Part shown: positions 4,083 to 31,106 of the stretch, in pieces
How positions within the stretch are numbered: position 1 is the stretch's first letter
How the letters are laid out: the number at the start of each line of letters is the position of its first letter
Assembly (NCBI RefSeq): GCF_029255285.1
Contig: NZ_JAPUVI010000048.1
Location: 1-53,806, forward strand
DNA from: Accumulibacter sp.
GTDB lineage: Bacteria; Pseudomonadota; Gammaproteobacteria; Burkholderiales; Rhodocyclaceae
Length of the DNA stretch: 53,806 bases
Direction: 5' to 3'
Translations under genes and position numbers: made by a program
The notes under the pieces: generated by a model
Databases searched by the model: none
What the model saw: the letters and a program-made list of their open reading frames with translations, nothing else
Told to the model about the DNA's origin: nothing

Positions 4083-4879
4083 GGGTCGAGATCGACGCGC
4101 AGTGACATCGGCGGCAGGTAATCGAGGCAGACGCTGTCTGTTTTGCGTCTGGCCAGCGATTGCAGCAGAGGCAGCGCGCGCAATGCTGGAATCGTGGTCC
4201 GCAAGTGTTCGAGCCGGTCGTCGGCCAGTTTCGCCGCGACGTCGTCGCTTGGCGCGAGCGCCAGGCGGGCCAGCGAAAGGGCGCTGCGGTCGGGCGTCAA
4301 CAGCAAGGCGACACCGGCGCAATCGCCGATCGGCCGCTTGCTGTGCAGCGGTTCCGGATACTCGCTGTCGTAGGCGATGAGCAAGACCGGCCGCTGCTCC
4401 GCGACGACCTGCGCCAGCGCCTCGAGCAGGCCGGCGCCGAAACTCGCGTCGAAAGCGCAGAGCACCTGGCAAGGCGCCATCGAGCCGGTGGCGATGCCCC
4501 AGTAACCGGCGGCGGCGTTATGCACCGAGTTGTGAAAGCGGGTTGGCGAAACCCGCCGGTCGTCGCTCGCCAATTGCTCGCACAGCGCATGGCAATTGTG
4601 ACCGTCGGCGCCCGAGGCGGTAAACACCGTGGCCAGCGTGGTGAGTTCGGCGCCGGCTTGGGCCGCGGCTTCGAGGCCGAGCGCGAGAGCCAGCCGGACG
4701 ACCCGGCTGGCGCGCCGACGCTCGGCCGCCGGCAGCAGGCTGGGCACCGGCAGCCGCGTCGGCGCCGGCGCGTACGCCTGCTCGCCGCACAGCACCGCAC
4801 AGGCCGTTGGCCAGTCCGGCAAGCCGGGGGCAAGGCAGCCGATACCTTCGATCCAGGCGCCGAGCGGGGCGGGTCTCAT
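4076..4879 (-). CDS. apeC: Beta-ketoacyl synthase-like chain-length factor (ApeC-like)
   Basis: Protein of 267 residues related to the N-terminal half of beta-ketoacyl synthases, the type annotated as 'beta-ketoacyl synthase chain length factor'. The canonical nucleophile motif is replaced by CAFDASFGAG and no C-terminal His motifs are present, so it is probably non-catalytic and pairs with the ketosynthase encoded just upstream to set chain length. Conserved family stretches include NSVHNAAAGYWGI. The start overlaps the ketosynthase stop by 4 bp (ATGA). Confidence 0.85.
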   Translation of the reverse strand: MRPAPLGAWIEGIGCLAPGLPDWPTACAVLCGEQAYAPAPTRLPVPSLLPAAERRRASRVVRLALALGLEAAAQAGAELTTLATVFTASGADGHNCHALCEQLASDDRRVSPTRFHNSVHNAAAGYWGIATGSMAPCQVLCAFDASFGAGLLEALAQVVAEQRPVLLIAYDSEYPEPLHSKRPIGDCAGVALLLTPDRSALSLARLALAPSDDVAAKLADDRLEHLRTTIPALRALPLLQSLARRKTDSVCLDYLPPMSLRVDLDPC

Positions 4880-23991: not shown

Positions 23992-24645
23992 TCAGGATAT
24001 GCCTTTCTGATCTGCCACTTGCGCGAAATGCTGGAGCACGTGGTGAACGGAGGTGTACGGGTTGTACCCGTTGCGCTCTGCTCGATTCTCGACCCAGGCG
24101 GCGTTTTCGACGGCCTCTTTCAGCCGCGGCGTGAGTTGCTTGGCGATCGTCGCCTCCGCTTTTTCGTAGCCGGGCAGTTTCTTGCGTAGCCGCTCGATCA
24201 CATCGGCGCAATGGTTGAATGGAGCATCCGTTTTTTCGTAGTGTAGGAGCAGCCAGAACTCGAAACAGGGGATCGAAATCGCTTCCCGAATATCGAGTGG
24301 CTTGTTCTTGCGCCCGGCCAGCGTTGCCATCCGTTCCCGTGCACGGCCAAAGCTCTCGTGACCGTTACGGTCAAAGACGCAATAAATCCGATCATAGCCG
24401 CCGCGCTCCGTACACTTCGCTTCGGCGCACGCGACGACGCTGACGGGTGCGGCGCCTTTCGTGTTCTCGGCAAGAACGATTTCCGCCGTCGTCAGCCCGT
24501 ACTGAATACGCGCGGCCGCGAAATACTCCTGTTCGGTCTCGCCCTCGCACACGATGAGGGTGATGGACCGGGGCGGCTTCTGCCCCGCGGTACGACGGAA
24601 TGAACCGCTGTCCCGCGGCTTGGAGATCGGCATGCGACGCGCCAT
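23992..24645 (-). CDS. rloB: RloB-domain protein (AbiLii-like)
   Basis: Protein of 217 residues of the RloB family, with a Toprim-like core: ITLIVCEGETEQEYF near residue 30 supplies the Glu, and DRIYCVFDRNGHE gives the acidic pair. The second conserved block is SIPCFEFWLLLHYEKTDAPF. It is encoded 3 bp after the RloA-type ATPase and is its usual partner in AbiL-type abortive-infection systems, where it is the likely effector nuclease. Base composition is lower in GC than flanking genes, suggesting transfer. Confidence 0.88.
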   Translation of the reverse strand: MARRMPISKPRDSGSFRRTAGQKPPRSITLIVCEGETEQEYFAAARIQYGLTTAEIVLAENTKGAAPVSVVACAEAKCTERGGYDRIYCVFDRNGHESFGRARERMATLAGRKNKPLDIREAISIPCFEFWLLLHYEKTDAPFNHCADVIERLRKKLPGYEKAEATIAKQLTPRLKEAVENAAWVENRAERNGYNPYTSVHHVLQHFAQVADQKGIS

Positions 24646-24648
24646 ACG

Positions 24649-25947
24649 TTACCCCGCGATGCTGCCGATGAACGGAATCGCCCCGTAACGACCTTTGAGA
24701 TAACCCCGCTCCAGGGCTTCATCCTTGCGCGGCGAGTATTCCAGTAGCGAATAGAGCGACGATGAGCCCTGCTTGTCTTTCTCCACGAACCAAATCTGGT
24801 CGCGCCGTAGAAGCTCGGTGTCGAGCAGGGTCGTATCATGCGTCGTGAAAACCAGTTGGGCGTTCTTGTCGTTTTTCCGGCTATGAAATAGCCCCACAAG
24901 GAAGCGGGTAATGTGGGGATGCAGGCTGCGGTCCAACTCGTCGACGAGCAGCGTCGCCCCCCATTCAAGCGCCCGTAGCCAACCGCCAGAGAACTCGAAC
25001 AGCTTCTGCGTGCCGTCGGACTCCTGATCGATGTCGAGTGCCACTTCTTCGCGGGAATCCGCCCGCTTGTGCCATGCCAGGACGCGCAGACGCTTTGGCG
25101 TTTGCGGCGAAGAACCCGAAGGCAGGCCAATCTCGAAATGAAGCCGTACGGCGCCCGGTGGAAGCTTTCCCGCGGGGGCCGAGGGAGAGTCCTCTTCCAG
25201 CAGTTCCAAACGATCAATGCCGATGTCCGCCGCACGCATAAAGCGCATGATCTGCTCGTGCTCATCCACGTCCCGTAGGAGGTTGAGACTCAGAAATGGG
25301 TTCATGACGACGCCGGGCACCAGCACGATGAGCTTCTGGGTAATCCAGTTGAATACCGGCCGGAGTTGAGCATTGTTCAGTTGAATGGCCGTCGACAGGA
25401 ACAAGGCATTGTCCCGGGTGAAGTCGTGCCAAACCTTGCGCTCCGCCCGTTCGGCGCTGAAATTGGGGCCGAACCACCACCGTTGCGCCTTACTTCCGGC
25501 GTCGTATTCCCGTTCAAACCACCGTTGTGCGCGCCCACGCGGGTAGGCCACCAGCCATTCCTTGAACACCCGTTCCGAGCTTGCTGCGCAACTGTAGTGA
25601 TAGCGGACACCGTCGTCGGCCGTGAAGATGATTTCGAACTCGGAAGGCTCTGCACATGATGCCTCCTCCGCAAAGAGAAACGGGGTCACGGGGATGGCGT
25701 AGCCTTCCTGGAAACCCGTGGCCGAGTTCTGCACGAGTTGTCGAAAAGTTTCCACGGCGCGTAGAAGGTTGCTCTTGCCTGCCGCGTTGGCGCCATAGAT
25801 GACCGCCGACCGCAGCAACCGCAGTTCCTTGTTCTGGCCCGGGCTGACGTTGCGCTGAAGATGCGTGGCGTCCGGACTCGCCACCATGCTCAGCTTCTGC
25901 CGGGTCCGAATCGAGCGGAAATTCGCCACGCCAAACTCGATCAACAT
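24649..25947 (-). CDS. rloA: RloA-type AAA ATPase (AbiLi-like)
   Basis: ATP-binding protein of 432 residues of the AAA_15/OLD-like group. The N-terminus FGVANFRSIRTRQKLSM is the usual SMC-like start; Walker A is GANAAGKSNLL (about 54-64), Walker B/D-loop is LLVDELDRSLHPH, and FTTHDTTLLD holds the switch His. Paired with RloB it forms a two-gene defence module against phage, with the ATPase probably sensing infection and gating the RloB effector. The pair stands alone between metK and intron fossils. A palindromic element precedes it. Confidence 0.88.
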   Translation of the reverse strand: MLIEFGVANFRSIRTRQKLSMVASPDATHLQRNVSPGQNKELRLLRSAVIYGANAAGKSNLLRAVETFRQLVQNSATGFQEGYAIPVTPFLFAEEASCAEPSEFEIIFTADDGVRYHYSCAASSERVFKEWLVAYPRGRAQRWFEREYDAGSKAQRWWFGPNFSAERAERKVWHDFTRDNALFLSTAIQLNNAQLRPVFNWITQKLIVLVPGVVMNPFLSLNLLRDVDEHEQIMRFMRAADIGIDRLELLEEDSPSAPAGKLPPGAVRLHFEIGLPSGSSPQTPKRLRVLAWHKRADSREEVALDIDQESDGTQKLFEFSGGWLRALEWGATLLVDELDRSLHPHITRFLVGLFHSRKNDKNAQLVFTTHDTTLLDTELLRRDQIWFVEKDKQGSSSLYSLLEYSPRKDEALERGYLKGRYGAIPFIGSIAG

Positions 25948-26109: not shown

Positions 26110-26515
26110 TTGTTGGGACGGCAAATGCCTTTGGTCACGTGGAACACTGCCGCAAGGCCGGCTACGGTGAATCCACTGTGCGATATCAGCCAGTGGGTAC
26201 GGCGCAAGTTGTATGGCCATCCCGGGAGACAATGGGGCCCGGCCGGCTATCGGGAACTGCGCAAGCGCGTGGTGTCCGTGCGCGAAGCGTGGGTTCATTC
26301 TCCCTGGTGATCCTCAAAGACGCCGGCGTTGGCGTTTGCGCTGCCATGGCGCTTCTTCATGGACTTGGGAGTGCCAAGCCTTGGCTCGGTAGTGATTCAG
26401 TTCATCGAATAGCCGGATACGTGACCCCTACCTCCGGAAGCGTGGGAGGAAGGGGCTGCGAGGCTTCGTCCTATCTCGATTGGGCGCCGCAACATGGAGC
26501 AGTCGTGCCCTGTTT
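26110..26515 (+). mobile_element. Group II intron 3' remnant, copy 1
   Basis: The plus strand encodes a decayed C-terminus of a group II intron reverse transcriptase/maturase: ISQWVRRKL...QWG...YRELRKR...REAW, then in another frame KTPALAFALPWRFFMDLGVPSLG. After it come the intron RNA parts: a domain V-like stem with gccggatacgt and cctccggaag (about 26405-26440) and a GC-rich domain VI-like stem ending near 26515. The RT lacks its N-terminal domains and is frameshifted. The same 3' end occurs again at 30490-30710. Confidence 0.7.
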
Positions 26516-26524
26516 TTCCACCAT

Positions 26525-26850
26525 TTACCCAGCCATTTGGCGTGCTGCGGACGCACCTGTGCCTGAGCCGACCATTTCCGGTGCGAGATTCGCCGCGTGC
26601 ATCAGGTTGTGCGCCAGGGCAAACAGAACGGCCACGGCCTTCACTTTCCGGATACCTCGTACCAGCAGTCGCGTCATCCTGCGGTTCCGAGCCTGCGCAT
26701 GGACATATTCGGCGGTGGAGGCCCGCTGCTTGTACAGATCCTTGGCTTCCGCACCGGCCATTCGCTTGCGCCAATCGGCCACCGCAGGACTGTCACCGTC
26801 CTTCGGTTGGTGAACGTCGACAATCAGGGGGGCGGCGAGCCGTCGTCCTG
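26525..26850 (-). pseudogene. IS1182-family transposase C-terminal fragment
   Basis: About 105 codons match the end of an IS1182-type DDE transposase: PKDGDSPAVADWRKRM, then KDLYKQRASTAEYVHAQARNR, then TRLLVRGIRKVKAVAVLFALAHNL. The usual protein is over 450 residues, so the N-terminal and central DDE region are missing. It overlaps the end of the anti-sigma gene, so the insertion or deletion ended exactly there. Confidence 0.8.
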
Positions 26851-27027
26851 GCCATTCCATCGTCGCATGAACTGGCGGCATGCCAGGCGCAGGAAATCCA
26901 TCTGCGTGCGGAAATTGCGGCAGCCGCGACACATTGCCAGATGCATTTCGAGCAGCAGTTTCTCGCCACGGCTCAATGGGCGATCCTGCGCTTCGGACAT
27001 CAGCCGGGTGGCCTCCTTGCAGCTCAA
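26824..27027 (-). CDS. Zinc-finger anti-sigma factor (ZAS type)
   Basis: Small protein of about 67 residues with the zinc motif H-x3-C-x2-C in EMHLAMCRGC and an extra Cys near the start (LSCKEATRL), typical of cytoplasmic anti-ECF factors. It would bind and silence the ECF sigma encoded just upstream. No ATG fits; TTG at 27027 overlaps the sigma stop (TTGA) and starts the conserved LSCKEA region, with another TTG at 27030. Its tail runs into the IS1182 fossil, so the last residues may be foreign. Confidence 0.75.
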   Translation of the reverse strand: MSCKEATRLMSEAQDRPLSRGEKLLLEMHLAMCRGCRNFRTQMDFLRLACRQFMRRWNGQDDGSPPP

Positions 27028-27617
27028 CAAGGTTTTTCTCCCGAGGAGAACCAGTTGCTTTCCAGGCAACGGCGAAGGCCGTTGCGGGCCCGGTGCAGGA
27101 TCACGTTGCAATTGCTGATCGTCAGGTTGAGCTTACGGCAAACCTCGTCGGTTTCGAATTCGAGAAACTCGCGCATCATGAACACGCGTGCCGTTTTCTC
27201 CGGCAGGTGGTTGAGGCAGATTTCGAACACCTCCCAAAAGCGTTCCTGCCGCAGGGTATCCTCCGGGTTGCCCCAGCCAAACGGGCGGGCCTCCGGGCGC
27301 CAATGGGCGTTCGCCTTGAACAACGCTTCGAAGGTTTCGTCCATTCCGGCCTCGTCGTCCGCCAGCGCCGACACGTTCGTCGTTCTCGACTGCAGACGGA
27401 TCAGATCGACGATCTTGTTGCGCAGGATGGAGAACACCCAGGTCTTCAAGGCGGCCCGACCGGCGAAACTGCGCTCGCCGGCCAGCGCCGCAGCGAGCGC
27501 CTCCTGCACCGCGTCTTCGGCCATCGCCGCATCGCGGAGCTGCATTTGTGCAAACTTCAACATGTCGCGACGGACCGCCGCAACGAACTGGTCATCGATT
27601 ACTGGGGTGTCGGACAC
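27024..27617 (-). CDS. ECF RNA polymerase sigma factor
   Basis: Sigma factor of about 197 residues. Region 2 includes AMAEDAVQEALAAAL and KTWVFSILRNKIVDLIR; region 4 has ICLNHLPEKTARVFMMREFLEFETDEVCRKLNLTISNCNVILHRAR, the helix-turn-helix. The gene order with DoxX, DUF2063 and DUF692 proteins matches the Neisseria Ecf operon. I chose GTG at 27617, which overlaps the doxX stop by 19 bp; ATG at 27662 would add 15 residues inside doxX. It probably activates its own operon in response to metal or oxidative stress. Confidence 0.88.
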   Translation of the reverse strand: MSDTPVIDDQFVAAVRRDMLKFAQMQLRDAAMAEDAVQEALAAALAGERSFAGRAALKTWVFSILRNKIVDLIRLQSRTTNVSALADDEAGMDETFEALFKANAHWRPEARPFGWGNPEDTLRQERFWEVFEICLNHLPEKTARVFMMREFLEFETDEVCRKLNLTISNCNVILHRARNGLRRCLESNWFSSGEKPC

Positions 27618-28141
27618 GAGACCGTCGAGAATTCCGGGTGGTTGGCAGGTTGTGCGCTGCACTGCCGCCGAATCCAGGCGTCGATCGACAACTTGCCGGG
27701 GCCGCAGAGCAGTAGCGGCAACAGCATACCAATGAACAGCACCGGCAGCTTGAAATTTCCGGCGCCGTTGTCGGAAAAAACATAGCCCAGCATCAGTTCA
27801 CCGAAGCTGCTCCATGTTTCTGGCCAATGCACGGCGGCAATGGCGACAACGGTGAGCACGATCAAGGAGATCGAAACAAAGCGCGTTGCCAGGCCGATCA
27901 CCAAGGCGATGCCACCCAGCAATTCGAACCAGGTTGCCATCTGCCAGCTTACTTCAGGCGGAACGATGTTGAACGGGAAAGGAAAGCGCTCCTGAATATC
28001 GAAGAACCAGTTGTTGCCACGAAATTTCTCCAGGCCGGACTCGAAGTAATCCCAGCCGAGCAGGATGCGCAGGCTGAGAAGGCCAAGCCAGAAACCCAGG
28101 CTATCGACGGTGCGGATGGTCCGCAGGGCGAGATTTATCAC
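27599..28141 (-). CDS. DoxX-family membrane protein
   Basis: Protein of 180 residues with four membrane segments (LGFWLGLLSLRILLGWDYF, WFELLGGIALVIGLA, ISLIVLTVVAIAAV, LPVLFIGMLLPLLLCG). DoxX proteins are inner-membrane components linked to redox stress and, in copper-RiPP operons, often follow the two modification genes. The start is GTG, overlapping the hvfC stop by 4 bp. The C-terminal 25 residues after LSIDAWIRR are hydrophilic. Confidence 0.85.
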   Translation of the reverse strand: MINLALRTIRTVDSLGFWLGLLSLRILLGWDYFESGLEKFRGNNWFFDIQERFPFPFNIVPPEVSWQMATWFELLGGIALVIGLATRFVSISLIVLTVVAIAAVHWPETWSSFGELMLGYVFSDNGAGNFKLPVLFIGMLLPLLLCGPGKLSIDAWIRRQCSAQPANHPEFSTVSCPTPQ

Positions 28142-28881
28142 AGCTTTCTCCCAAGAACGATACCCTGCTGCTGCAGTTCGCCGAGCAGGCCGGCGCCGAA
28201 TCCAAGCAGTTTCTGCGGATCGGGATGTTTGAGTTGGTTGGCCAAGTGCAGGATTGCCCGTCTTCCGCTCGTCGGTTCGGAGGCCAGCAGCTCGATCAGG
28301 CGTCCGGTGATCGGTGTGACGACGGAAAAGCGAACGATGTCGTCGGCGTCGCGATAGACCACCAGGTGGGTCGGCCGGCGCTTGCGGGGTCGGAACTCCT
28401 GGCCGATCAGATGGACCGGCCAGGCATAGGCCAGATTCATCAAGGCCGGATTGAGCGCCACCGTGCCGTCCATCAGATCACCTGCCGGGTCGACTCGCGG
28501 TAGCGGCGCATCGATCACGTCGACCGCGAGTTCGGCCCACTCGTAATGAGCCAGTTCGGGCAGCCAGCGCGGCAACGGCAGGCGGACCTCCGCCTCGTGG
28601 AGATAGCGCACGAATTCGCGGGGAATTTCGCGGAACCACGGCGTGTGCATCGGCCAGTCGCGCAGGAAGGTCCGGCACAAGAGGCGCCAGCGCGTTTCGC
28701 CAGCCAAGCTGCGACAAACCGGAAAACAGGTATCGACGAAGCCGCACAGGTTGTTGAATACCAGTTCTTGATAGACCGCCACACGACGCTGCGGCGTACC
28801 GGCGGGACGCGGCACCCGATGTGGGTCGCACAGATGGCGGCCGAATTCGTGCTGAAACTTCTGAAAGTCGCGCAGCATCAT
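28138..28881 (-). CDS. hvfC: HvfC/BufC-type DUF2063 partner protein
   Basis: Protein of 247 residues of the DUF2063 family. The N-terminal half has FQHEFGRHLCDP, RVAVYQELVFNNLCGFVDTCFPVCRSL and LPELAHYEWAELAVDV, all characteristic. It is the recognition partner of the DUF692 enzyme, delivering the precursor peptide. The ATG overlaps the stop of the DUF692 gene (ATGA). Confidence 0.9.
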   Translation of the reverse strand: MMLRDFQKFQHEFGRHLCDPHRVPRPAGTPQRRVAVYQELVFNNLCGFVDTCFPVCRSLAGETRWRLLCRTFLRDWPMHTPWFREIPREFVRYLHEAEVRLPLPRWLPELAHYEWAELAVDVIDAPLPRVDPAGDLMDGTVALNPALMNLAYAWPVHLIGQEFRPRKRRPTHLVVYRDADDIVRFSVVTPITGRLIELLASEPTSGRRAILHLANQLKHPDPQKLLGFGAGLLGELQQQGIVLGRKL

Positions 28882-29726
28882 GTCACCTGTCTGACGGCGT
28901 CGCGTGCCTGCGCTTGCAGGCGGGCGATCTGATCAAGCTCGGCGGTCAGTTGCGCCAGATCGGGGACGTTGAAATCTCGTTCGAGGCAGGTCGGCAGGTC
29001 GCTGCCGATGCGCCGGTAGGTCTCGGCCAGCAAGGACCACACCGGGTCGACCACCGTGGCACCGTGCGTATCGACCAGCAAGCCGTCCGGCTCGACATGA
29101 TGTCCGGCAACGTGGATGTAGCAGGTGCGCTCCAGGGGCAAAGCGTGCAGGAAAGCCAGCGGATCGAAACCGAAGTTGCGGCTGTTGACGTAGATGTTGT
29201 TCACGTCGAGATGCAGTAGGCAATCCGCTTCGTGAATGATGGCCGAGATGAATTCGGTCTCGTTCATTTCCGCACCCGGCGGTGCGAAATAGTACGAGGC
29301 GTTTTCGATGCCGATCCGGCAGCCCAGGATGTCCTGCGCCTGGCGGATGCGTCCGGCCGTCCACCGCACGGCTTCCTCGCTGAGCGGAATCGGCAGCAGT
29401 TCGTAGAGATGGCTGTCATCGGAGCACCAGGACAGGTGCTCGGTGTAGAGGTTGATCGAATGTTCGGTCATGAAAGTCCTGATGCGGCGCAGCAGCGGCA
29501 GATCCAGTGGAGCCGGCCCGCCCAGCGACAGCGATAGGCCGTGACAGACGAAGTGATGGCGTTCGGTAAAATAGCGTAAATCTCTGGCCGATTTTCCGCC
29601 CATGCCGGCCCAGTTTTCCGGAGCCAGTTCGAAAAATCCGATGGCTGCGGGAATCCCGTTCTTGAGTTCGGCGATCAGCTCGCGGCGAAAACCGAGTCCG
29701 GCGCCTTGCAGGGGGCGATGATTCAT
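28878..29726 (-). CDS. hvfB: HvfB/BufB-type DUF692 (MNIO) RiPP enzyme
   Basis: Multinuclear non-haem iron-dependent oxidase of 282 residues with a TIM-barrel fold. Metal ligands are visible in VCHGLSLSLGG, NLYTEHLSWC, GIENASYYFAPP, LLHLDVNNIYVN and YIHVAGHH. Enzymes of this family turn precursor cysteines into oxazolone/thioamide or related copper-binding groups. It is encoded 67 bp downstream of a matching precursor. Cytoplasmic. Confidence 0.95.
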   Translation of the reverse strand: MNHRPLQGAGLGFRRELIAELKNGIPAAIGFFELAPENWAGMGGKSARDLRYFTERHHFVCHGLSLSLGGPAPLDLPLLRRIRTFMTEHSINLYTEHLSWCSDDSHLYELLPIPLSEEAVRWTAGRIRQAQDILGCRIGIENASYYFAPPGAEMNETEFISAIIHEADCLLHLDVNNIYVNSRNFGFDPLAFLHALPLERTCYIHVAGHHVEPDGLLVDTHGATVVDPVWSLLAETYRRIGSDLPTCLERDFNVPDLAQLTAELDQIARLQAQARDAVRQVT

Positions 29727-29793
29727 GACGTTTCCTGGCTATGTCGCAACCCGCGCGGCGACGAACACGATGCTCGCGCCGCATCGTTGGCGG

Positions 29794-30084
29794 CTACTTT
29801 TTGTCGACACCTCCCTTCTTGTCCGCGCTTCCCTTCTTGTCCGCACCGCACTTGGCTTCACCGCATTTGCCGTCCTTCTTCTTGTCCGCCGTCTCCTTCT
29901 TGTCGGCGCCACACTTGGCTTCGCCGCACTTGCCGTCCGTTTTTTTGTCGGCTTGAGCCAGTTGATAGCCGCCCGACAGTCGTTTTGCGGCAAACGGATT
30001 GTCGTCAGCGTGTGCGGTGGAACCGAGGGTGGCAGCGGCGACCAGGGAACCGACGGTCAAGGAAACGAGGGCTTGTTTTTTCAT
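29794..30084 (-). CDS. hvfA: HvfA-family copper-binding RiPP precursor
   Basis: Secreted precursor of 96 residues. A signal peptide (about 1-26, ending ADAHA-like STAHA) is followed by the family start DDNPFAAKRLSGGYQLAQADKK and a Lys/Asp-rich tail with two copies of DGKCGEAKCGADKK, giving Cys53, Cys58, Cys74 and Cys79. EGKCGE-type Cys motifs are the known substrate of DUF692 enzymes in the Haemophilus oxazolin system. I chose ATG 30084 because GGAG lies 6 bp before it; ATG 30096 and 30087 are alternatives. It is the first gene of the operon hvfABC-doxX-ecf-anti-sigma. Confidence 0.92.
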   Translation of the reverse strand: MKKQALVSLTVGSLVAAATLGSTAHADDNPFAAKRLSGGYQLAQADKKTDGKCGEAKCGADKKETADKKKDGKCGEAKCGADKKGSADKKGGVDKK

Positions 30085-30143
30085 CATCTTCTCCATAGTG
30101 GTTGGTAGGTTGCGAGCGTATTGTTGGTTGGCTCGAACGATTG

Positions 30144-30169
30144 GTCGGAGCTCGTGCCGATTTATTACA
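30144..30169 (-). promoter_or_regulatory. Candidate ECF-type promoter of hvfA
   Basis: On the minus strand TGTAAT (30164-30169) and CGAC (30144-30147) are 16 bp apart, close to the TGTAA...CGTC pattern recognised by ECF sigma factors of related operons. It lies about 60 bp before the hvfA start and would allow autoregulation. The -10 differs from CGTC by one base. Confidence 0.4.
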
Positions 30170-30489: not shown

Positions 30490-30710
30490 CCAATTCCATG
30501 GCGGCGACCGAAAACGTCGGCCTTGGAGTTTGCGCTACCATTGTGCGTCTTCATGGATCCAGGCTGTCCAGCCTTGGTCCACGCGAGAAATTCCGTTCAT
30601 CGAACAGCCGGATACGTACTCCATATCTCCGGTGGTTTGGGGGGCGAAGCCGCGAAGCGGCTTCCTGTCCCGAATTGGCGCCGCAACATGAACCCGTCGT
30701 GTCCTACCAG
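30490..30710 (+). mobile_element. Group II intron 3' remnant, copy 2
   Basis: A maturase C-terminal scrap (KTSALEFALPLCVFMDPG) corresponds to KTPALAFALPWRFFMDLG in copy 1 at 26110-26515. It is followed by a domain V-like hairpin (gaacagccggatacgt ... ctccggtggttt, about 30600-30638) and a domain VI-like stem near 30640-30690. Both copies share ggcgccgcaacatg and a cgtgYcct end, which marks the intron 3' boundary near 30700. The catalytic RT domains are absent. The stretch 30180-30490 holds no recognisable gene. Confidence 0.65.
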
Positions 30711-31106
30711 CTCTTAGCTGACGTCGTCCTCGTCATCCACTTCGGAGTCGTCCTCTTTGTCGTGGGCGGCCTCGTCGTGGTTGTGGCGGGAAACTGGCGG
30801 CACTGGCGCTGGGTCAACGAATGGCGCTTCCGGCTGGCGCATCTCGCCGCCATCGCCTTCGTGGTAGTTCAGACCTGGTTTGGGCAATCTTGTCCACTCA
30901 CCTCACTCGAATCCTGGCTCCGCGGTCAAGCGGGCATCACCGCGTACCGCGCGAGTTTCATCGAGCACTGGATCCAGAAGCTGATCTACCACGAGGCTCC
31001 GTTGTGGGTATTTACCGCGGCCTACACGGTGTTCGCCGGACTGGTGCTTCTGGCCTGGTGGCGCTTCCCGCCGCGCCGCGGTCGGAGCAGAAGCCGAGGC
31101 GCCTGA
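30699..31106 (+). CDS. DUF2784 membrane protein
   Basis: Membrane protein of 135 residues: LADVVLVIHFGVVLFVVGGLVVVVAG, AHLAAIAFVVVQTWFGQSCPLTSLE and VFTAAYTVFAGLVLLAWWRFPP, the three- to four-helix DUF2784 pattern with the conserved CPLT-x-WE-like block. The only usable start is GTG at 30699, which lies within the shared 3' end of the group II intron, and no ribosome site is visible. The intron may have replaced the original start region. Function unknown. Confidence 0.75.
   Translation: MSYQLLADVVLVIHFGVVLFVVGGLVVVVAGNWRHWRWVNEWRFRLAHLAAIAFVVVQTWFGQSCPLTSLESWLRGQAGITAYRASFIEHWIQKLIYHEAPLWVFTAAYTVFAGLVLLAWWRFPPRRGRSRSRGA

Follow-up and report, generated by a model that had tools for sequence, protein, structure and literature searches.

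The closest described relatives of the locus analyzed here come from Neisseria and Haemophilus. As far as the available passages of the source papers describe them, the Neisseria sigma-E operon (NMB2140-2145, NGO1948-1943) is the gonophorin cluster, has MseR as its anti-sigma factor and belongs to a regulon that includes msrAB, and the Haemophilus influenzae oxazolin operon hvf is associated with RpoE2/HrsE, a ZAS-controlled ECF sigma factor that reacts to HOCl and has the doxX operon and msrAB among its targets. In the same partial accounts, a gonococcal relative responds to H2O2, and the meningococcal sigma-E is described as unresponsive to peroxide, diamide and singlet oxygen. In the part of the literature consulted, the modification demonstrated for the EGKCG/oxazolin class, in the hvf and ngo products, is a 5-thiooxazole that costs 4 Da per cysteine (PMC13097082), and characterized EGKCG and bufferin peptides bind copper. 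A third described system, the Caulobacter sigma-F regulon with its DUF2282/BufA1 operons, places two MNIO operons and YedY under an ECF sigma factor; according to the sections available, it differs from the present case in that NrsF, for which six membrane segments are predicted, takes the place of a ZAS protein, and in its DUF2282 precursors.

The stretch of DNA that we analyzed, hereafter the window, comprises 53,806 nucleotides of an Accumulibacter sp. contig (NZ_JAPUVI010000048.1). It contains a real and complete operon of six genes, all on the minus strand within 26824-30096, that encode, in order of transcription, an HvfA-type precursor, HvfB, HvfC, HvfX, an ECF sigma factor and a ZAS anti-sigma factor. 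At the inferred gene starts, hvfA and hvfB are separated by 67 nt, and the remaining four of the five junctions overlap: hvfB/hvfC by 4 nt, hvfC/doxX by 4 nt, doxX/sigma by 19 nt and sigma/ZAS by 7 nt, the last with a TTG start of the ZAS gene at 27030. Five of the six products score above the cut-offs of NCBIfam models at equivalog or subfamily level, and the precursor exceeds that of a domain model only; the six frames and the promoter are unbroken, and the key residues that were checked are present. The initial annotation had described an ECF-controlled RiPP operon running in one direction with stop-start overlaps between most neighbours, and our study supports it on the identity of the genes, on the structure of the operon, on ECF control and on the RiPP class.

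The precursor gene hvfA (29794..30096, minus strand) encodes 100 amino acids, although a later ATG start is also possible, and is recognized by NF050137 above its cut-off (E 4.3e-14); against the full-length HvfA equivalog NF050188, it scores 33.5 bits, below the cut-off of 95. At E 0.1, no Pfam family matched the precursor, and BufA2 was not among its NCBIfam hits. Its N-terminus has a signal-like start, judged by eye, and is accompanied by the leader NPFxxxxLxxGYQLAQAD, which is conserved across an alignment of 80 sequences. As initially proposed, the core consists of two repeat units with four cysteines: they lie in tandem at 29815-29877 and 29878-29940, measure 63 nt each, are 84% identical and each encode DGKCGEAKCGADKK, with the cysteines at C57, C62, C78 and C83. 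The units carry DGKCG-EAKCG twice, a repeat of the (E/D)GKCG type. By analogy with the characterized products, the cysteines of HvfA are probably turned into copper-binding rings; since four cysteines would each lose 4 Da, a shift of about -16 Da is expected, and a change of -2 Da per cysteine is not. The small peptide is probably exported, and it is more likely to reside in the periplasm than to be released from the cell.

The maturation proteins place the cluster, on family models and enzyme residues, among the oxazolins of the EGKCG type ("captophorin"), beside gonophorin and fontiphorin. HvfB (28878..29726, minus strand; 282 aa) is an MNIO (DUF692) peptide maturase that matches PF05114 with 317 bits and NF003818 with 386 bits (cut-off 360), and its nearest solved chain is 3bww. 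It has the residues of Lys-Cys enzymes, RR at R14-R15 and DF at D251-F252, whose counterparts in FonB are given as R15-R16 and D249-F250 in the portion of that report available. HvfC (28138..28881, minus strand; 247 aa) is an RRE-type partner of the PME1/DUF2063 kind, given that its gene adjoins hvfB with the 4-nt overlap and that it reaches 268 bits against NF050145 (cut-off 142); it also matches PF09836 and NGO1945_C, and the Neisseria gonorrhoeae chain 3dee is the only solved chain that it matched. HvfX (27599..28141, minus strand; 180 aa) is a DoxX-family protein (PF07681; 143 bits against NF050144 matur_HvfX_fam, cut-off 80). The earlier designation "oxazolin/bufferin type" thus stands in its first half only: HvfB exceeds the HvfB model and reaches 238.6 bits against the bufferin maturase model NF050167, below the cut-off of 310, and these models together with the RR and DF residues rule out a bufferin reading of this operon. 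A methanobactin reading was also rejected (34.6 bits against the MbnB model, cut-off 325).

The sigma factor (27024..27617, minus strand; GTG start, 197 aa) scores 258 bits against TIGR02943 (cut-off 162) and contains Sigma70_r2 and r4_2. The adjoining ZAS gene (26824..27030, minus strand) encodes 68 amino acids with zf-HC2 and a match to NF052368 above cut-off; no membrane segment was seen in the protein by eye, and its C4, H30, C34 and C37 occupy positions identical to those of meningococcal MseR (NMB2145). The likeness to Neisseria claimed by the initial annotation therefore holds for content: from what the available text describes, both operons have six genes ending in sigma and then ZAS, both encode a DoxX-like protein, a DUF2063 protein, an MNIO and a Cys peptide, both ZAS proteins carry Cys4/His30/Cys34/Cys37, and the promoters agree in part. 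Gene order does not match, since the Neisseria operon opens with the DoxX-like gene, which here takes the fourth place. In the case of Haemophilus, the HvfA, HvfB, HvfC and HvfX types, a ZAS-controlled ECF sigma and, on the regulon predicted here, co-regulated msrAB are in common on the published details at hand, but the sigma and ZAS genes lie outside the hvf operon there, and the double motif of HvfA occurs three times (six Cys) as opposed to twice (four Cys) here. The same gene order and promoter class were found in four Dechloromonas/Azonexus loci (L033, L034, L035 and L037), with HvfB 78-86% and sigma 81-85% identical, three of which (L033-L035) encode an HvfA with three core units (six core Cys). 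We regard the operon as a well-supported further example of a kind of system also present in Neisseria, which would extend the link between captophorins and methionine repair known from Neisseria and Haemophilus to environmental Rhodocyclales.

Special attention was given to the promoter. A conserved element upstream of hvfA (30141..30168, minus strand, read from 30168 to 30141) consists of a -35 region GTAATAAAT, a 12-nt spacer and the -10 region CGACCAA. The ECF-like promoter previously placed at 30144-30169 is essentially this element, so that the proposal holds up at the level of sequence conservation and only the exact limits change. The strict pattern matches once in the 4.19-Mb genome, against 0.003 matches expected from the base composition of the window. 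Relatives were assessed in 80 named loci, which are not a random sample because they were chosen as closest to the HvfB of this operon. An element of the promoter class precedes hvfA in 23 of the 25 named loci with sigma-ZAS downstream, compared with 64 of 15800 (0.4%) in a shuffle control; where the arrangement is divergent, 12 of 14 loci have it upstream of ZAS, at a distance of about 70 nt. One class of loci, labelled div_lowid, is based on weak similarity and may mix sigma kinds. The spacing fits the Neisseria sigma-E consensus (GTMAGBWTT and CGTCTAAH, spacer 12-13) as given in the accessible part of its description, but several positions differ, the -10 CGTCTAAH there corresponding to CGACCAA here. 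The Caulobacter promoter, GTAACC-N16-CGAA in the excerpt available, is unlike that of the hvf operon. Of the 44 loci that have a linked sigma belonging to the operon's group, none has a sigma-F-type promoter (GTAACC-N15-17-CGAA) upstream of hvfA, and 7 of the remaining 36 do, so that promoters of this type do not explain the hvf operon; L110, a locus without hvfA, was scored as a miss in both the promoter and the sigma-F-type counts.

Across the 4.19-Mb genome, a promoter-class pattern that was loosened after the msr site had been seen gave three matches, at the hvf operon, a BufA2 operon and msrB-msrA, and none in a reversed control. This set of sites is reminiscent of the regulons described in Neisseria and Haemophilus. 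The BufA2 operon (L001) is unlinked to the hvf operon and qualifies as a bufferin operon; it had been considered as a BufA1/DUF2282 cluster, but Pfam found no DUF2282 and NCBIfam gave BufA2. Such an operon with this promoter class is a difference from Neisseria, to the extent that the latter is covered in the source. MsrB and MsrA have signal-like starts, and a promoter-class element is absent from L146, the other MsrA locus of the genome. Within the genus, the promoter is present at 15 of 16 bufA2-type loci (one MNIO locus per genome examined) and absent from the two other HvfB loci (L150 and L152). Looser patterns in other genomes had a background: one gave 30 matches against 24 in the reversed control, and another 10 against 9. 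Of the 30, 18 preceded MNIO, msr or ZAS genes and 12 preceded genes of other kinds. The conserved promoter is usable for target prediction, and it offers a specific reason to think that BufA2 bufferins, whose clusters are reported without sigma genes in the part of PMC12452194 available, can come under the control of an ECF sigma encoded at another place in the genome.

Based on these comparisons and on analogy, it is highly probable that the operon is an autoregulated system of the sigma-E/MseR type for an EGKCG (oxazolin-type) captophorin, with the regulon as proposed. At rest, the ECF sigma would be held by the small ZAS protein; thiol-reactive stress, caused by an oxidant or by thiophilic metals, for example Cu(I), would damage the C4/C34/C37 zinc-thiol site, and the freed sigma would transcribe its own operon from 30168-30141. 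The genes and the conservation of the promoter are established here; the signal, for which copper is a candidate, is one that we infer. By the chemistry of close relatives, HvfB and HvfC would act together on HvfA, each of whose four Lys-Cys-Gly cysteines would become a 5-thiooxazole with a loss of about 4 Da, Sec would export the modified peptide to bind Cu(I) in the periplasm, and HvfX would assist in the membrane. Because the promoter class also precedes the BufA2 operon and msrB-msrA, the response, as we read the regulon wiring, probably couples copper buffering to the repair of oxidized methionine.

How far the operon's sigma reaches beyond its own operon may depend on a second, orphan sigma-ZAS pair, whose copy in this genome lies at C22:133665-134207. 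We give slightly less than an even chance to the view that within a single genome one promoter class, served by paired ECF sigma/ZAS systems, joins two classes of thiooxazole copper peptide, an EGKCG oxazolin and a BufA2 bufferin, to methionine sulfoxide reductases of the periplasm, with a horizontally acquired hvf sigma cross-talking with the resident orphan pair and BufA2 operons controlled in trans. Another account, on which opinion could fall nearly either way, restricts the operon sigma to its own operon and assigns the bufA2 and msr promoters to the genus-wide orphan pair, the two sigmas being separate or partly overlapping. For this account, the orphan sigma forms a separate clade; 26 of the 28 same-genus genomes, this one included, contain a strong match to it that runs unbroken (E 3e-59 or better); and the -10 at bufA2 is CGTCTAA, against CGACCAA at the hvf operon. 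In a tree made by a quick search without bootstrap, drawn with a single sigma from each related genome (none with a locus came from G003 or G023, and a second G018 sigma, 51%, was left out), the hvf-linked clade contains no other same-genus sigma, for which reason another sigma probably reads the bufA2 promoter at the other loci of the genus; the paralogous orphan sigma may read both the bufA2 and msr promoters. On the other hand, the msr -10 is CGACCAA, as at the hvf operon; nine of the 28 genomes carry the orphan sigma without an MNIO match (two of the nine being only 83-88% complete), which requires further targets for it; in this genome, two frames share the orphan ZAS, which is thus split; and no promoter-class element precedes the orphan sigma at its C22 locus or at 25 other same-genus loci, so that it does not look autoregulated by this class. 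ZAS patterns among relatives were counted only where tblastn found ZAS.

It is possible, but we consider it doubtful, that defence against HOCl or peroxide is primary and copper binding secondary, the peptide guarding against Cu-catalysed damage or scavenging oxidant through its thiols. The presence of msrB-msrA in the predicted regulon, the redox-type ZAS cysteines and the HOCl response of Haemophilus RpoE2 speak for this, against which stand the copper binding of the characterized peptides and, as far as that source goes, the unresponsiveness of meningococcal sigma-E. In the window, a tRNA was the sole Rfam match at gathering thresholds.

With respect to origin, the six-gene operon recurs in the same order in named Rhodocyclales loci, but HvfB at 73% identity or more occurs in only three of 28 same-genus genomes, and the operon sigma is nested among Azonexaceae hvf-linked sigmas; this scattered occurrence within the genus and the closest affinity, to Azonexaceae, make it probable that the operon was acquired. 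When the DUF2784 neighbour was looked for in relatives, no empty site came to light, the same-genus matches being distant (at most 44% identity). The distribution of the operon, together with a fragment of a transposase immediately downstream and a direct repeat present in two copies, one on each side of the operon, would also be compatible with an island that was acquired recently, may be silent and lies outside any integrated stress response. We consider this quite improbable, given that the six frames, the promoter and the checked key residues are intact: if the acquisition dates back to the split from the nearest relatives (86% HvfB), decay would be expected to show, and it has not.

The six genes hvfA, hvfB, hvfC, hvfX (DoxX), ECF sigma and ZAS fill positions 26824-30096 of the minus strand; overlaps join hvfB/hvfC, hvfC/hvfX, hvfX/sigma and sigma/ZAS, and a 67-nt gap separates hvfA from hvfB. 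HvfB (NF003818), HvfC (NF050145), HvfX (NF050144), the sigma factor (TIGR02943) and the ZAS (NF052368) all scored over their NCBIfam cut-offs, and the precursor passed the HvfA-family domain model NF050137 while falling below the cut-off of the full-length HvfA equivalog. By sequence, the top solved-structure matches were 3bww for HvfB and 3dee, from N. gonorrhoeae, for HvfC. None of the papers found by our literature searches described, in its title or abstract opening, this operon in Rhodocyclales.

The HvfA precursor consists of a signal-like start (identified by eye), followed by DDNPFAAKRLSGGYQLAQAD and two 21-residue units with DGKCGEAKCGADKK in each. Residues N33, P34, F35, L40, G43, Y44, Q45, A47, A49 and D50 are identical in 77 to 79 of 80 aligned HvfA sequences, which comprise the window and 79 of our 80 named loci, L110 being without hvfA. 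This conserved segment sits between signal and core, and we infer that it may form part of the HvfC recognition site; in Haemophilus, the signal sequence itself has been reported to influence HvfA modification (PMC13419390). In this class Cys is converted to 5-thiooxazole, with a mass change of -4 Da each, as demonstrated for fontiphorin, oxazolin and gonophorin, and the enzyme residues RR and DF have been tied to Lys-Cys substrates (PMC13097082). The window HvfB carries these Lys-Cys residues as RR at 14-15 and as D251-F252; in the genome's bufferin enzyme, RS and DD stand in their place. Among the 80 loci, GFRR or GLRR was present in 79 and ERDFN in 73, this second motif search giving no match in seven.

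Upstream of hvfA lies the promoter element GTAATAAATCGGCACGAGCTCCGACCAA (30168-30141, minus strand). It resembles the Neisseria sigma-E consensus, given as GTMAGBWTT, 12-13 nt, CGTCTAAH (PMC2893595), in the GTAA, the spacing and most of the -10, although some positions differ. We scored the position of the sigma gene relative to hvfB in the 80 named loci and searched up to 250 nt upstream of hvfA for GTAAn5-n10..14-CGnCnAA. The element was found in 23 of the 25 loci with the sigma gene downstream, six of the 20 with no sigma found, three of the 16 with a weak divergent match, none of the 14 divergent loci and none of the five with sigma upstream on the same strand; shuffled upstream sequences contained it in 64 of 15800 cases. 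In the divergent class, ZAS is the first gene of the operon, and the element precedes it in 12 of 14 loci. A sigma-F-type element, GTAACC-N15-17-CGAA, was also observed upstream of hvfA at L046, L053, L057, L061, L065, L070 and L075. These seven belong to the 36 loci in which no sigma of the window group is linked (shuffles, 7/15800), which suggests promoter exchange between sigma families. The Caulobacter sigma-F regulon is already known to join two MNIO operons with YedY.

In the genome as a whole, GTAANAAATN{11,13}CGACYAA matched once, in the window. The pattern GTAANNAATN{11,13}CGWCYAA, fixed before the result was known, matched there and at C86:2002-2030 (0.04 expected from base composition). 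The latter site ends 71 nt ahead of the start of a BufA2 bufferin precursor, whose MNIO and DUF2063 genes follow. GTAANNNWTN{11,13}CGWCYAA, relaxed only once the msr site had been seen, gave three matches (0.43 expected from base composition). The third, separated by a leader of about 240 nt, stands ahead of an MsrB gene that has a signal-like start and is followed by MsrA; a further MsrA locus in this genome (L146) lacks the element. For each of the three patterns the reversed control gave zero. In same-genus genomes, the element lies upstream of 15 of 16 BufA2-homologue loci, every one with CGTCTAA. A related pattern gave 30 matches in 37 genomes versus 24 for the reversed control. The 30 comprise 12 before bufA2 homologues, three at msrB-msrA, two at another MNIO cluster, one before a ZAS adjoining a sigma gene and 12 before other genes. 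In other genomes (L166, L168, L170, L174, L176), with gene identities assigned by eye and a high pattern background, it precedes YedY/MsrP-, thioredoxin- and EgtB-like genes, DUF1223 and a small CTAKHPCAEKK-containing peptide. Among the papers that our searches listed, no title or abstract opening mentioned a promoter common to oxazolin, BufA2 and msr. Sigma genes have been reported in Buf1 and not in Buf2 clusters, and section 15 of the same study names none for EGKCG clusters (Antoine et al. 2025, PMC12452194). In Cupriavidus the sigma gene rpoQ is close to the gig (bufferin) operon, and RpoQ is dispensable for gig expression (PMC13192273).

A second sigma factor of the group, 55% identical to that of the window, is encoded at C22:133665-134207. 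It belongs in our tree to a clade of 26 same-genus sigmas, itself among the 26, with no hvf gene in the surrounding DNA (flanks up to 1.5 kb), and the window sigma is placed among hvf-linked Azonexaceae sigmas (nearest, Dechloromonas sp. CZR5, 86%). An MNIO match is absent in nine of 28 same-genus genomes. Because all nine possess this orphan sigma, which forms a separate, hvf-unlinked clade, it probably reads the bufA2 promoter in genomes without hvf; the absence of a promoter-class element upstream of the orphan sigma itself counts against this. The window sigma may share the bufA2 and msr promoters in its own genome. The orphan ZAS gene there is split over two frames (positions 4150-4500 of its locus, L145), which may be a natural break or an assembly error.

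The window ZAS has C4, H30, C34 and C37. Work on meningococcal MseR dealt with these same positions and reported the cysteines, but not His30, to be essential. Counting only loci with a ZAS found by tblastn, C...HxxxCxxC occurs in the window protein, 25/25 of the downstream class, 20/20 of the orphan class and 22/22 others. As to the signal, meningococcal sigma-E is reported to be insensitive to peroxide, diamide and singlet oxygen, the gonococcal genes to respond to peroxide, and Haemophilus RpoE2 to HOCl; copper would be an inducer here judging from the function of the product.

HvfB with at least 73% identity occurs in three of 28 same-genus genomes, this one included, and the copies in Dechloromonas/Azonexus reach 86% identity to it; the two other same-genus HvfB loci (L150, L152) have no promoter element. 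Directly downstream of ZAS is a DDE_Tnp_1_6 C-terminal transposase fragment (26525-26932, minus strand), and a 197-nt direct repeat, 74% identical, flanks the operon on both sides (26317-26511 and 30511-30705); a 161-nt query from it matched nowhere else in the genome. The patchy presence of HvfB in the genus, its closeness to Dechloromonas/Azonexus, the transposase fragment and the repeat suggest that the operon was acquired. One same-family genome (G035) has a sigma identical to that of a locus labelled Propionivibrio, an indication of Rhodocyclaceae. Beside the operon lies a DUF2784 gene (30705-31103, plus strand) whose same-genus matches are distant; its closest relative, at 64%, belongs to a different family of the order, and a search of relatives for this gene turned up no empty site. 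An AAA_21 ATPase and, after it, an RloB-like protein (23992-25947, minus strand) are possibly a defence pair.
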